A DNA stretch of 64,000 nt. It comes from Acidobacteriota bacterium. Lineage in GTDB: Bacteria > Acidobacteriota > Blastocatellia > Pyrinomonadales > Pyrinomonadaceae. How positions within the stretch are numbered: the first letter of the stretch is position 1; every line of letters starts with the position of its first letter. The notes below the pieces were generated by a model that had not been told where the DNA came from, did no database searches, and was given only the letters and a program-made list of their open reading frames with translations. Position numbers and translations under genes: made by a program. This document shows, piece after piece, positions 17,797 through 22,268 of the stretch. The stretch spans positions 1 through 64,000 of the forward strand of contig RFGC01000018.1 of the NCBI GenBank assembly GCA_003697135.1, given 5' to 3'.

Positions 17797-18387
17797 ATGG
17801 ATTTTGTGGACGAGAGCATTCATTTTTTCAAGGCTTTCATCAAAAATCCTCTTCATGTAGGAGCTATTTCACCATCATCTCCTGAGCTTGCCAGAGAGAT
17901 GATAAAAGGTATTTTCCCAAGTGAGAAAAATGCTGTTTTGGAGATAGGTGTTGGGACAGGTGCGATTACAAGGTTCCTAGCTCCTAAACTGCCAAATAAT
18001 CGGTCTTATCTTGGAATCGAGATTGATAGAGAGTTCGTCAAAGTTTTGCATAAACGTTTTCCACATCTTTTAATTGTTCAGGGAGATGCTCGCAGAGCTT
18101 CAGAAATAGCTCGTAAGGTTAGAATTGAAGATATAACCTACATAATTTCGAGTCTTCCTTTTGCTTCACTTCCAAGAGAAGTTCGCAGAGAAATTTTAGG
18201 CGAGATTGACAAGTTTATGCAAAGGGGATGCATTTTTCGCACCTTTCAGTATGCTCATTGCTACTATCTCTCTTCAGCAGTTGAGTTTCGCAAGTTTATG
18301 GACTCTCGTTATGGCAAGGCCAAAAGAAGCAAGTTGATACTGAAAAACTTACCGCCAGCGTATATTTTGACTTGGCAAACAAAGTAA
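17797..18387 (+). CDS. SAM-dependent methyltransferase, PmtA/KsgA-like
   Basis: The 196-residue protein begins with an amphipathic segment (FFKAFIKNPLHVGAISPSSP), typical of PmtA-type phospholipid N-methyltransferases. The SAM-binding motif I follows as VLEIGVGTGAITRFL, then an acidic motif II (GIEID) and VQGDA. The region IISSLPFASLP corresponds to the NLPF-like motif IV. The membrane-facing N-terminus and the overall length (about 200) favour phosphatidylethanolamine N-methyltransferase or a related small methyltransferase over an rRNA dimethylase. It stands alone between topA and the kinase gene. The substrate is inferred only from these family traits. Confidence 0.8.
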   Translation: MDFVDESIHFFKAFIKNPLHVGAISPSSPELAREMIKGIFPSEKNAVLEIGVGTGAITRFLAPKLPNNRSYLGIEIDREFVKVLHKRFPHLLIVQGDARRASEIARKVRIEDITYIISSLPFASLPREVRREILGEIDKFMQRGCIFRTFQYAHCYYLSSAVEFRKFMDSRYGKAKRSKLILKNLPPAYILTWQTK

Positions 18388-18501: not shown

Positions 18502-20697
18502 ATGAAAGAATGCCCTCAATGCAAAAAATGTTATCCGGATGATATCGCTCAGTGTCCTGATGACGGTGCTTCAACTTTTCATTCAATACCAGGTGAGCCA
18601 CTTCTTGAAAAGAAATACAGGCTAGAACGAAGACTAGGACAGGGCGGAATGGGAGTAGTTTACAAAGCCCGCCATGATTATTTGAAAACCTACCATGCTG
18701 TCAAAGTCATTTTACCAGATTTAGTGGGGAATGATTCGCAACTAATTACGAGATTTCATCAGGAAGCCCGCGCAGCTGCTGCCATACGCCATCACAATGT
18801 TATTTCAGTAACGGACTTTGGAGTTGCGAATAACAAGATGCCTTTTTTGGTGATGGAGTATGTTGAAGGAGAGTCTCTTCACGAGTTACTTCAGAGAGAA
18901 AAGAAGCTACCCGTTGAAAAGGCAGTAGAACTGATTTGTGCAATTTGTGCAGGGGTCAATGCAGCGCATAAACTGGGGATAATCCATAGGGATTTGAAGC
19001 CTCTCAATATAATGATTTCCAAAAATGCGGAGAATTTTTATGAGGCAGTCAAAATCCTTGATTTTGGCTTAGCGAAAATAAAGTCGGGTGAAATTTTGGG
19101 GTCTTTTATTCAAGCTCAGACGACTGGCTTTATGGGATCACCCTATTACATGGCGCCAGAGCAATGGGGTGATGAAGAGCCAGATGCTCGATCTGATATT
19201 TATTCGCTTGGGATAATGCTTTTTCAAATGATAGCCGGAGATGTTCCGTTCAAAGGTGGTTCGATTCCGGCAATCATGAGGAAGCATCTTTATGATCCTC
19301 CTCCATCGCTATCTTCTTTTGGTGTAACAGTGCCTTTGAAACTAGAAAAGGCGATTCACCATGCATTGGAGAAAGATAGGCAAAAAAGAACAGAAAATGT
19401 TGATGAGTTTGTTCGTGAAGTAAGAGAAGCTATTGGCTTGAGTTACTCGACATTCTCAATACCTTCTTCAACTGTTTTGATGCCACCATCAGATGTGCAG
19501 ATTCTGTCGAATTCTCCCGGGGCTAAGGTTTTTGTTGATGGCATTGCTTATGGAGTGACAGAGTCAGATGGGCGTTTATTGATAGAAGGTTTGCAGAGTG
19601 GAAGTCATAGAATCAGGCTGGTTCACGAAGGCTTTCAAGATTGGGAAGCAGATATTTTCTGCGATGGCCAGCCTAAACGAGTCGTTGCAGAACTCAAGAA
19701 ATCAGCCTCTCAGCCCATTCAGAAACCTTCAACACCTATACTTTCCGAGACCGAAGACTGGCTTAAAACTAGAGTAGAAGAAAGACCGAAAATAACCACT
19801 AAACAAAACTCTGAGATTACAATTGAACAAGCGCAAGTTCGTCCAGACACTCAAGTAGCAGAAAAAACTAAGTCAAGAAAAGTTTTTGTTTTGGTGGCGA
19901 GTATCTTGTTGATATTTGCACTAGGCGGCTTGGTAGGGCTATTGATTATGGAGTTTAGCCCATCTTCTGAAGAACCACCAATTCCAGCTAATGAACAGAT
20001 ACAGTTAAAAGACTTTAAGCCCGAGATGATAAAAATTCCCGGCGGGACTTTCAGAATGGGGAGAAATGATGGAGACATAAGGGAAAGACCAGAGTTTACC
20101 GTTACAGTGCGAGATTTTTGGATAAGTAAAACTGAAGTAACAAATGCCGAATATGAACAATTCATTAGAGAAACTGGTTATCAAGCTCCTCCTTATTGGA
20201 TTGGTGGCAGACCGCCAGCAGGGCAAGAGATGATGCCCGTTGTGTATGTTGACATGAAAGACATTGAAGAATTTATCAAATGGCGATCGGATCGCGATGG
20301 TGTCAAATACCGTTTGCCGACTGAAGAAGAGTGGGAATATGCGGCTAGAAATGGTAGCGATAACAATCTTTATCCTTGGGGAGATAAATGGGAAAATGAT
20401 AGAGCTGCGGTAGAGGTTTTCAAAATAGTGCCAGTTGGGTCTTTTCCAAAGGGGGCCAACAAATGGGGAGTTTTAGACCTAATCGGGAACGTTTGGGAAT
20501 GGACAAGTTCAAAAATAAAGCCTTATCCGGGAGCGAGAATTGTTTTCAACAAGCCGAACAATTTTGTTATTCGCGGTGGTTGTTTCAATAGCAGGGCAAG
20601 CGGTGATAAAGCTATAACATCAACAACAAGAGGTGACGTTGAGCCTACAAGGAAAGATGGTCTCTTAGGCTTTCGCCTTGCTCGCGATGCAGATTGA
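18502..20697 (+). CDS. Transmembrane Ser/Thr protein kinase with PEGA and FGE-sulfatase (SUMF1-like) domains
   Basis: The 731-residue protein has, in order: a short zinc ribbon (CPQCKKCYPDDIAQCPDDG); a Hanks-type kinase with glycine loop GQGGMGVVYKA, a lysine in AVKV, HRDLKPLN (D164), DFGLAK and APEQW; a PEGA domain (about 328-388, VQILSNSPGAKVFVDG); and a linker. A transmembrane helix at about 456-478 follows (VFVLVASILLIFALGGLVGL). The C-terminal sulfatase-modifying-factor fold has KIPGGTFRMGRND, YRLPTEEEWEYAARNG, NVWEWTSS and GFRLARD. All catalytic kinase residues are present. The outside domain may bind ligand or act as a lectin-like sensor; FGE catalytic cysteines are not obvious. A pseudokinase gene follows 59 bases downstream. 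Confidence 0.92.
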   Translation: MKECPQCKKCYPDDIAQCPDDGASTFHSIPGEPLLEKKYRLERRLGQGGMGVVYKARHDYLKTYHAVKVILPDLVGNDSQLITRFHQEARAAAAIRHHNVISVTDFGVANNKMPFLVMEYVEGESLHELLQREKKLPVEKAVELICAICAGVNAAHKLGIIHRDLKPLNIMISKNAENFYEAVKILDFGLAKIKSGEILGSFIQAQTTGFMGSPYYMAPEQWGDEEPDARSDIYSLGIMLFQMIAGDVPFKGGSIPAIMRKHLYDPPPSLSSFGVTVPLKLEKAIHHALEKDRQKRTENVDEFVREVREAIGLSYSTFSIPSSTVLMPPSDVQILSNSPGAKVFVDGIAYGVTESDGRLLIEGLQSGSHRIRLVHEGFQDWEADIFCDGQPKRVVAELKKSASQPIQKPSTPILSETEDWLKTRVEERPKITTKQNSEITIEQAQVRPDTQVAEKTKSRKVFVLVASILLIFALGGLVGLLIMEFSPSSEEPPIPANEQIQLKDFKPEMIKIPGGTFRMGRNDGDIRERPEFTVTVRDFWISKTEVTNAEYEQFIRETGYQAPPYWIGGRPPAGQEMMPVVYVDMKDIEEFIKWRSDRDGVKYRLPTEEEWEYAARNGSDNNLYPWGDKWENDRAAVEVFKIVPVGSFPKGANKWGVLDLIGNVWEWTSSKIKPYPGARIVFNKPNNFVIRGGCFNSRASGDKAITSTTRGDVEPTRKDGLLGFRLARDAD

Positions 20698-20756
20698 GAC
20701 TTTGAAATCTAGATTTTATCAGGCTAGCAGATTAGCTTAAGAGTTTAGAAACTTCG

Positions 20757-22268
20757 ATGGTCTCACATGAAGAGAAAAAACTTAACTGTCCAAAATGCGG
20801 CACTACTTATGAGGAAGAATGGCGGTTTTGTTTGAAAGATAACTCTCGCCTTTTTCCTGGATCGCAAGAAAAAGCCACCAGGATTCAGAACATTCTCGCT
20901 GAGGTGCAGAAACATAAGGCCAATAGACTAAGAGAGTCTGAAAAGACCTCTGCTGAGGAAATTGAAACTCCTATTGAAACTTTTCTAGAAGAAGTCCTTG
21001 TTTGGAAAAAAGGAAAAACACTGATTCAGGTGAAACCTTCGGAGTTGTTCATGGATTCTTCTGATGAGGAAAGGCAAGAAGAGACCAGAGTAAAATTGGT
21101 GAATCCCTTTACCATTCCTTCAGGCACAGTTGAACCTGGGGACAGAAGCGTAAAACCTTTAGGACGAGAGGCTTTCAATCCAGAAAAACCTCGCTTGATG
21201 CTTGGAAAAACGCTCAAAGGAAGATACGAGATATTGAATTTTGTAAAACGAACGCTGAAATTCTGTGTTTATTCAGCCAATGATTTGGTAGCTGAAAAAA
21301 ATGGACTGGAAAAGAAAACTCTTGTTTATATCTTCACGCAAAAAGATGATAATGCAATAAGAAAAATTTTAGGTGAAGAAAGAGTTGCATTTTCCCACAC
21401 AAAACATCCAAACATTGCCGTTATGATTGATTCCGGCAGACTCCAAGAAGGAAATCCTTTTATGGTCTTGGAATCTCCAGAGGGAGAATCTCTTGAAAAG
21501 AGAATTTCCGAGAAAGGTTATATGGAGGTTTCCAGAGTAGCCAGAATCATTTATCAAGCGGCAGAGGCTTTAGGCGAAGCTCATAGAAACGGAGTTCTTC
21601 ATAGAAACTTGACTCCTCAAAAAATAATTCTGAGCTTCAACGATAAAGGCGTGGAACAAGTCAAGGTGATGGAATTTGCTGTGTCTGAAGGTGAAGTGAC
21701 TCAAGAAAATTTCTTGTATCTAGCTCCGGAACAGCTTGAAGGCAAATCTGTCTCACCAAACAGCGATATATTTTCTCTCGGCGTTATAGCATATCAGCTT
21801 CTTACGAAGAGACTGCCGTTTGAAGCCAGTTCGATAGAAGCTTTGCAAAGGCTTCATAAGCAAGGCTTGAAGTTGAAGCCATCGCAACTAAGAATAGATG
21901 TTCCTTTTGTGGTAGATGAAGTTCTGCGAAAAGCACTTGCGTTTGAGCCTTCGCAAAGGTATCTGAGAGCTAGAGACTTTGGAGATGCTTTTTACAACGC
22001 TTTGGTCAAAACAGTTGAAGAGGAAAAGATAAGCACTACTACAACGACGAAAGAAAAGCCACACAAAGAGGAACTGCAAAAGCCTTTCAAAGATAAAACA
22101 GAACCAATGAAAACAACAGCACAAAAATCGCCTGCCTTATCAAAAGCCGGTTCTGACGCAAAAGTTCATGAGAAATCATCGAGAATATCGAAAAAAAATT
22201 TGCTTTTCCTGTTTCTGCTAATTTTAGCTTTGTTAGCGATTTTGTATTTCGTATTTACCGAGCTGTAG
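20757..22268 (+). CDS. Membrane-anchored pseudokinase
   Basis: The 503-residue protein has an N-terminal zinc ribbon (CPKCGTTYEEEWRFC), a linker, and a Hanks-kinase-like fold at about residues 155-425. A single transmembrane helix lies near the C-terminus (LLFLFLLILALLAILYFVF). The kinase fold is recognisable from GVLHRNLTPQKIIL, YLAPEQLEGKSVSPNSDIFS and LGVIAYQLLTKRLPFEA. Catalytic residues are gone: HRD is HRN, DFG is EFA, and the beta-3 AVKV lysine is missing (TLVYIFTQ). It should therefore not phosphorylate. It sits next to an active kinase of similar N-terminal ribbon, so it probably regulates that kinase or its target; this is inference. The transmembrane helix places it at the membrane with the kinase in the cytosol. 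Confidence 0.88.
   Translation: MVSHEEKKLNCPKCGTTYEEEWRFCLKDNSRLFPGSQEKATRIQNILAEVQKHKANRLRESEKTSAEEIETPIETFLEEVLVWKKGKTLIQVKPSELFMDSSDEERQEETRVKLVNPFTIPSGTVEPGDRSVKPLGREAFNPEKPRLMLGKTLKGRYEILNFVKRTLKFCVYSANDLVAEKNGLEKKTLVYIFTQKDDNAIRKILGEERVAFSHTKHPNIAVMIDSGRLQEGNPFMVLESPEGESLEKRISEKGYMEVSRVARIIYQAAEALGEAHRNGVLHRNLTPQKIILSFNDKGVEQVKVMEFAVSEGEVTQENFLYLAPEQLEGKSVSPNSDIFSLGVIAYQLLTKRLPFEASSIEALQRLHKQGLKLKPSQLRIDVPFVVDEVLRKALAFEPSQRYLRARDFGDAFYNALVKTVEEEKISTTTTTKEKPHKEELQKPFKDKTEPMKTTAQKSPALSKAGSDAKVHEKSSRISKKNLLFLFLLILALLAILYFVFTEL

Follow-up and report, generated by a model that had tools for sequence, protein, structure and literature searches.

Here we describe a pair of adjacent genes, K1 and PK2, in a 64,000-nucleotide stretch of Acidobacteriota DNA from the family Pyrinomonadaceae of the Blastocatellia (contig RFGC01000018.1), the whole of which is called the window below. 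The genes lie on the same strand with 59 bases between them. Their features are listed with nucleotide positions in the window or, where so stated, amino acid (aa) positions in the protein; TM stands for transmembrane and FGE for formylglycine-generating enzyme.

18502..20697, + strand: K1, open reading frame of 731 aa; Ser/Thr kinase with an N-terminal Cys motif, PEGA domain, TM helix, and FGE-like domain
18616..19389, + strand: kinase domain of K1 (aa 39–296); G-loop, VK, HRD, and DFG intact
aa 331–388 of K1: PEGA domain, a Pfam match
aa about 460–485 of K1: TM helix, a hydrophobic stretch read from the sequence; in orthologs, from hydropathy
20020..20685, + strand: FGE/SUMF1-like domain of K1 (aa 507–728), periplasmic, with no catalytic cysteine pair
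20698..20756, + strand: gap of 59 bases, the site of a secreted TPR gene in relatives
20757..22268, + strand: PK2, open reading frame of 503 aa; tail-anchored pseudokinase, orthologous to the third module gene (see below) but without its periplasmic PsbP-fold domain
20781..20852, + strand: zinc-ribbon-like N-terminal motif of PK2, inherited from a ribbon–TM–PsbP co-receptor
21087..21146, + strand: cytosolic linker motif of PK2 around IPSGTVEPGDR, kept in genome G032, where the kinase domain has been lost
21198..22016, + strand: pseudokinase domain of PK2; the VAIK lysine is replaced by Y, HRD by HRN, and DFG by EFA
22176..22262, + strand: C-terminal TM helix of PK2; the frame stops one residue further on

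K1 matches the Pfam profiles Pkinase (E = 2.4e-47), PEGA (E = 1.2e-6), and FGE-sulfatase (E = 6.5e-51), and its G-loop, VK, HRD, and DFG motifs are invariant in all six aligned orthologs. It thus has the traits of a Hanks-type membrane receptor kinase: intact VAIK, HRD, and DFG motifs, a TM helix, and an outside domain. In the alignment with SUMF1, the cysteine pair is absent from the FGE-like domain, with S and D at both positions, and none of the six aligned orthologs (6/6) has cysteines there. We take both positions to be those of the catalytic cysteine pair. The possibility that the domain is an active enzyme was rejected because the pair is missing in K1 and its orthologs.

The match of PK2 to Pkinase is weaker (E = 6.9e-25) and starts only at profile position 35; the G-loop is gone and the three catalytic motifs are replaced as listed. 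In the AlphaFold model, the kinase fold occupies residues of about 145–420 (pLDDT of the block mostly 85–98) and the C-terminal helix residues 474–502, and comparison with the mycobacterial kinase PknA gives Z = 30.6 over 259 residues at a root mean square deviation (rmsd) of 2.3. PK2 therefore combines a kinase fold with lost catalytic residues, which is the criterion for a bacterial Ser/Thr pseudokinase, and since its frame finishes directly after the anchor helix, it has essentially no outside part.

The first-pass annotation of this DNA had read the two genes as an intact kinase with PEGA, a TM helix, and an outside FGE-like fold, followed by a membrane-anchored pseudokinase that has lost the VAIK lysine and carries HRN and EFA. 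The profile matches, motif alignments, AlphaFold kinase fold, and C-terminal TM helix bear this out, with the restriction that the outside fold of K1 stands as a domain and not as an enzyme. A zinc ribbon common to both N-termini had also been proposed; Cys motifs are indeed present in both, but the zinc-ribbon profile is reached by PK2 only, not by K1, and this match (E = 0.0013) falls short of the profile cut-off.

Catalytic residues were surveyed in 32 of the 37 genomes with a PK2-type kinase domain, in which the domain lies within the fetched loci. The VAIK lysine is absent in 31/32 domains; arginine replaces it in most, tyrosine in the window and in G001, the nearest relative examined, and only G083 keeps the lysine. 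The DFG aspartate is missing in 28/32 and the HRD aspartate in 12/32, and the alpha-C glutamate and the HR of HRD are kept in every domain (32/32). In the alignment, the activation loop of PK2 is 14 columns shorter than that of K1. Between the Cys motif and the kinase domain, the regular expression R.[IV].P.[ED]I[PA][SA]G[THQ] finds the linker motif in 19 of 34 proteins.

Three other kinase-like proteins with broken motifs were seen in the genome of the window (G000) at loci L245 (481 aa, HGRL without DFG), L248 (509 aa, HMNV and EIG), and L243 (652 aa, HRD but GFP), and L244 and L249 are G001 counterparts of these motif-broken proteins. This small genome has roughly a dozen kinase-like genes, of which about four appear, judging by the motifs, to be catalytically impaired.

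The locus lies within a contig of 314,639 bases (C40) of a 2.79 Mb genome, which consists of 47 contigs and is listed as 97.24 percent complete. In G001, the gene order is topA, a methyltransferase gene, K1, a gene for a TPR protein, and a PK2 gene of 641 codons. Across the 65 loci examined, the window included, K1 and the TPR gene occur together in 36, and in 36/36 the order K1, TPR gene, third gene on one strand is the same (in G013, G106, and G120, the contig stops within the third gene). The locus L112 is an example with the FGE-like, TPR, and PsbP-fold parts all present. The TPR proteins begin with a signal-like segment followed by QDLG and are for this reason taken to be secreted. The third gene encodes a PK2-like N-terminal Cys motif, then a linker, a TM helix, and, at the C-terminus, a domain about 180 residues long. 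Some genera have the pseudokinase domain in this protein, placed between the Cys motif and the TM helix; in genera g3, g4, g7, g10, g13, g16, and g29 the protein is kinase-free. The PsbP-type C-terminal domain is present wherever the gene is complete, with or without the kinase domain. No account of this module of K1, TPR protein, and co-receptor was found in the open-licence literature searched.

On the upstream side, a small RrnaAD-like methyltransferase gene (17797–18387 in the window) is located between topA and K1, with the same placement in G001. In other genera, tRNA synthetase-like genes often stand upstream of K1 instead; the one at L033:8686–11358 is a leucyl-tRNA synthetase by Pfam.

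The AlphaFold model of the C-terminal domain of the third gene has a pLDDT of 93 and shows the PsbP fold. The first Foldseek match of the model is PsbP (1v2b, E = 1.2e-5), and comparison with CyanoP (2xb3) gives Z = 14.1 over 150 residues with an rmsd of 3.5 and with LpqN Z = 10.9. At the sequence level, the curated cut-off of Pfam PsbP_2 (27 bits) was not reached by the protein of L031, which scored 21.6 bits, three further proteins of this type were unmatched, and a search of the domain against solved structures returned nothing useful (best E = 0.07). Stand-alone TM–PsbP proteins were also seen (L088:1521–2456, L256, L257, L259, L260, L261), some without the zinc ribbon, and occur in Acidobacteriota family f31 as well. 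Such proteins are the likely source of the co-receptor.

Against this background, the window is the exception. At a cut-off of 430 bits, which was our own choice, the PK2-type kinase domain was found in 37 of the 162 genomes of the class, and 36 of the 37 also have the PsbP-type domain, the genome of the window being the only one without it; an initial PK2 scan of genome contigs had matched nothing. Elsewhere in the genome of the window, neither a PsbP domain (best match E = 0.03, taken as chance) nor a TPR ortholog (best match 57 bits vs 207–781 for TPR orthologs) was found. Because the PK2 frame sits between both missing pieces, their removal would take two or more separate deletions, or else a single rearrangement.

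The joint occurrence of the two pieces was tabulated for 97 genomes with K1, which were kept by hand from 117 listed at 1e-90 as belonging to the family of the window with E values of 4e-120 or better; the 20 genomes not kept either match less well or come from outside the family, for example G041 (another family, E = 3.4e-122). Both TPR and PsbP are present in 57 genomes, neither in 36, PsbP alone in 3, and TPR alone in 1 (Fisher p = 6e-22, uncorrected for kinship). It should be noted that the PsbP-only genomes G002 and G005 have unlinked, outgroup-type proteins, that the K1 contig of G116 stops just past K1, and that in G131 the TPR match is located at the end of its contig; all were counted as found. 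On the K1 tree, built from 61 of the 62 collected sequences, seven independent changes can be counted; PsbP follows in the same direction in 5 to 6 of these, and in none does it move in the opposite one.

K1 and PK2 have separate ancestries. The kinase tree comprises 67 domains. Its 11 PK2 proteins fall into one clade, nested in a group of 29 whose other 18 members are kinases from other species (support 100/99), and K1 forms its own clade elsewhere. Forcing K1 and PK2 into one clade costs 65 log-likelihood units (p-AU = 1.2e-5, approximately unbiased test). The 18 kinases are the best matches of PK2 in relatives and K1 was given no similar set, so their choice favours the grouping with PK2. 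Under the model used for this test, a common origin of the two genes was rejected, as they belong to different kinase subfamilies.

The origin of the PK2 kinase domain can be followed in a rooted tree of 51 PsbP-type domains, the root being two sequences of another family (f31). Both PsbP trees were made without the short sequence of G013, and in the rooted one that of G021 came from a second fetch. The kinase-free proteins branch first; those with a kinase domain share a single branch (100/99), inside which the kinase-free proteins of G014 and G032 are nested. In the simplest reading of these sequences, the co-receptor was ancestrally kinase-free and three changes suffice, the kinase domain having been gained once and lost twice; two is the minimum for the losses. 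G014 has lost the kinase domain and keeps all three genes of the module; G032 has lost it and keeps the linker motif, TPR, and PsbP, with no K1 in the fetched stretch, and the third protein of its close relative G083 bears the domain.

Since the kinase-free proteins come first in this tree, the Cys motif and membrane anchor of PK2 are older than its kinase domain and are therefore no sign of descent from K1. The ribbon, through which a common ancestor of the two genes had been proposed, belongs to a kinase-free ribbon–TM–PsbP protein and was rejected as a sign of ancestry. When genes for a kinase and a pseudokinase are neighbours, duplication is an easy first assumption, but they are not necessarily duplicates.

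Downstream of the module and on its strand, 30 of the 65 loci have a gene of the FHA-ABC type, sometimes after intervening genes. Pfam analysis of two of these proteins showed three FHA stretches together with an ABC ATPase and an ABC-2 membrane part. In many loci (L180–L195, L090–L097, and others), the fusion is followed by a small lipoprotein-like protein; the one that was scanned has a redoxin domain. The FHA-ABC exporter and the lipoprotein-like protein might together serve as the output on which the kinase module acts.

Taken together, the observed domain anatomy, gene order, separate ancestry, gain and losses of the kinase domain, and missing outside parts are best covered by a module of K1, TPR protein, and co-receptor onto which a dead kinase was grafted and which in the window lost its outer half, leaving PK2 as a non-catalytic partner; we give this reading a probability of roughly 0.55. 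K1 would be the catalytic member of an envelope-signalling module of the Pyrinomonadaceae, with the kinase inside and the FGE-like domain outside, the latter being non-catalytic and probably binding a ligand or partner. Its ancestral partner would have been a membrane co-receptor composed of zinc ribbon, linker, TM helix, and PsbP-fold domain and encoded together with the secreted TPR protein. Within the family, the co-receptor of one branch would have received, in its cytosolic linker, a kinase domain from a different subfamily, which then lost its catalytic residues, and the lineage of the window would later have shed the TPR gene and the PsbP-fold domain, so that ribbon, pseudokinase, and TM helix were left.

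By analogy, PK2 most likely assists K1 in the cytosol as a partner without catalysis or as a phospho-scaffold: it might cluster K1 or support it allosterically, serving as a membrane-tethered phospho-scaffold. The exporter with three FHA domains would then be the likely output, as the MviN–PknB/FhaA and PknF–Rv1747 systems suggest. A functional partnership of K1 and PK2 is likely because the inactivity of PK2 is conserved across genera and the genes form one operon-like unit. This much remains of the active/inactive pair proposed in the first-pass annotation. Its likeness to HER2/HER3 is weakened because the partners that are conserved are K1, the secreted TPR protein, and the PsbP co-receptor, because the kinase domain of the last is late and dispensable, having been lost in G014 and G032, and because PK2 of the window has no periplasmic domain for sensing.

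Several points weigh against this reading of the module. After correction for phylogeny, the co-loss of TPR and PsbP is borderline (median p = 0.031, range 0.031–0.063), and because the genes are neighbours, their joint absence is mostly explicable by single deletions. The outgroup that polarises the kinase gain consists of two distant sequences only. The IPSGT motif was considered as a phospho-threonine docking site for FHA domains and rejected, as T is found in 8 of the 19 motif-bearing proteins and H or Q in the others. As for the output, in 35/65 loci no FHA-ABC gene is seen downstream, some of them ending too early to tell, and in the genome of the window the FHA-ABC relative is unlinked, on another contig (C12:325150–328131); in G001 the linkage is broken too. 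The relative-rate counts given below are also of limited reach, as a recent truncation would escape the test.

Among the other explanations, the one with the largest share of the remaining probability, though still unlikely, is that PK2 of the window is a functionless, decaying remnant of the co-receptor. The lost periplasmic domain and the missing TPR partner agree with decay, as does the end branch of PK2 in the kinase tree, which is longer than that of G001 (0.41 vs 0.28) and because of which the evidence for retention is mixed. The frame is nevertheless open over 503 codons, and in the kinase part changes found only in the window are not in excess over those found only in the complete G001 ortholog, with counts of 26:26, 31:29, 24:25, and 28:25 against four outgroups. 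The kinase part is 59 percent identical (154/263 columns), with a nonsynonymous divergence (dN) of 0.31 against a synonymous divergence (dS) of 2.5 that is close to saturation; as dS is saturated in most comparisons, the ratio dN/dS is unusable. That the missing parts are hidden by an assembly error or lie in the absent portion of the genome is very improbable, even if the genome is incomplete and in 47 pieces: the locus is inside a contig of 314,639 bases, the frame stops after the TM helix with the next gene about 60 bases on (presumably gcvPB), and the orthologs were not found elsewhere.

Duplication of one gene, with the products forming a receptor pair of the HER2/HER3 kind, would fit the adjacency of the genes on one strand, the Cys motifs in both proteins, and the G001 locus, where both are kept together with the TPR gene between them. 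We consider it improbable, as the partners are not each other's relatives within the kinase tree (p-AU above), the ribbon comes from the kinase-free co-receptor, PK2 of the window has no outside domain, and the rest of the module is retained where the kinase domain was lost (in G032, TPR and PsbP). Still less is to be said for an unusual catalysis, in which PK2 would bind a nucleotide through another residue or carry out another transfer reaction. The invariant alpha-C glutamate, the arginine at the lysine position in most relatives, and the HRD aspartate in 20/32 domains could be taken in this sense, but PK2 of the window has substitutions in each of the three motifs (Y, N, and E) and no G-loop.

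A wider form of the grafted-kinase reading, which we hold only tentatively, is that the pseudokinase is a removable plug-in, grafted into a non-kinase co-receptor and dead, that tunes an FGE-type kinase and an FHA-ABC exporter, and that it forms a family outside the seven described ones. If this is true, species that have lost either the plug-in (G014, G032) or the outer side (the window) would represent a natural domain dissection. A single operon would trace a dead kinase from a kinase-free ancestor through gain, catalytic loss, and loss of either half. Comparing these natural variants allows a direct test of what a receptor gains from a dead kinase domain.

Bacterial pseudokinases have hardly been studied experimentally, according to PMC12599244, which describes seven families: DYD, GLW, CP1, DLHK, and ActPs1–3. 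Like PK2, the described families have lost catalytic residues and often have a C-terminal TM helix. There, DYD is defined by an absent alpha-C Glu and GLW by GLW replacing HRD, CP1 and DLHK are without a transmembrane region, ActPs1 is an Act1-related branch often with a PQQ domain, and ActPs2 has an activation-loop insertion of about 250 residues in about 90 percent of its members (PMC12599244). PK2 differs from DYD by the alpha-C Glu in 32/32, from GLW by the HR kept in 32/32, from CP1 and DLHK by the C-terminal TM helix, and from ActPs2 by an activation loop shorter than that of K1. By these descriptions, PK2 appears to be set apart from the five families, lacking one described trait of each. 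The term "acidobacter" is absent from the main text of PMC12599244.

The closest counterpart is the MviN/PknB/FhaA system of Mycobacterium (ActPs3), in which, as far as PMC12599244 describes it, PknB phosphorylates the tail of the MviN pseudokinase domain and the FHA protein FhaA is recruited. MviN resembles PK2 in placing an inactive kinase domain in a membrane protein; the active kinase that acts on it is PknB, and its FHA partner is FhaA. It differs in belonging to another phylum, and neither a zinc ribbon nor a PsbP part is mentioned for MviN in that account; phosphorylation, which MviN undergoes, is for PK2 a supposition.

In 30 of the 65 loci, the gene order recalls PknF and Rv1747, where the gene for a membrane kinase is succeeded by that for an exporter of the FHA-ABC type. 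In M. tuberculosis, the two genes share an operon and PknF acts on the exporter as a positive modulator, as stated in PMC3908365, and Rv1747 carries FHA domains, as stated in PMC5549992. The module differs from this pair in having three FHA domains and additional TPR and co-receptor genes, and in being unlinked from the exporter in the genome of the window and in G001.

K1 is like the cyanobacterial CLec kinases in joining a kinase to a C-terminal module, but its orthologs are conserved and not hypervariable. We take the FGE fold of K1 to be of the CLec class. Cyanobacterial Ser/Thr kinases with a C-terminal CLec ligand-binding module are described in PMC7517822. Finally, the PK2 orthologs share with PsbP, CyanoP, and LpqN a periplasmic domain of the same fold at about 10 percent identity, and they differ from these proteins in that the domain is fused to a TM helix and a zinc ribbon, with the pseudokinase as an optional part, and in that the copy of the window is without the domain.

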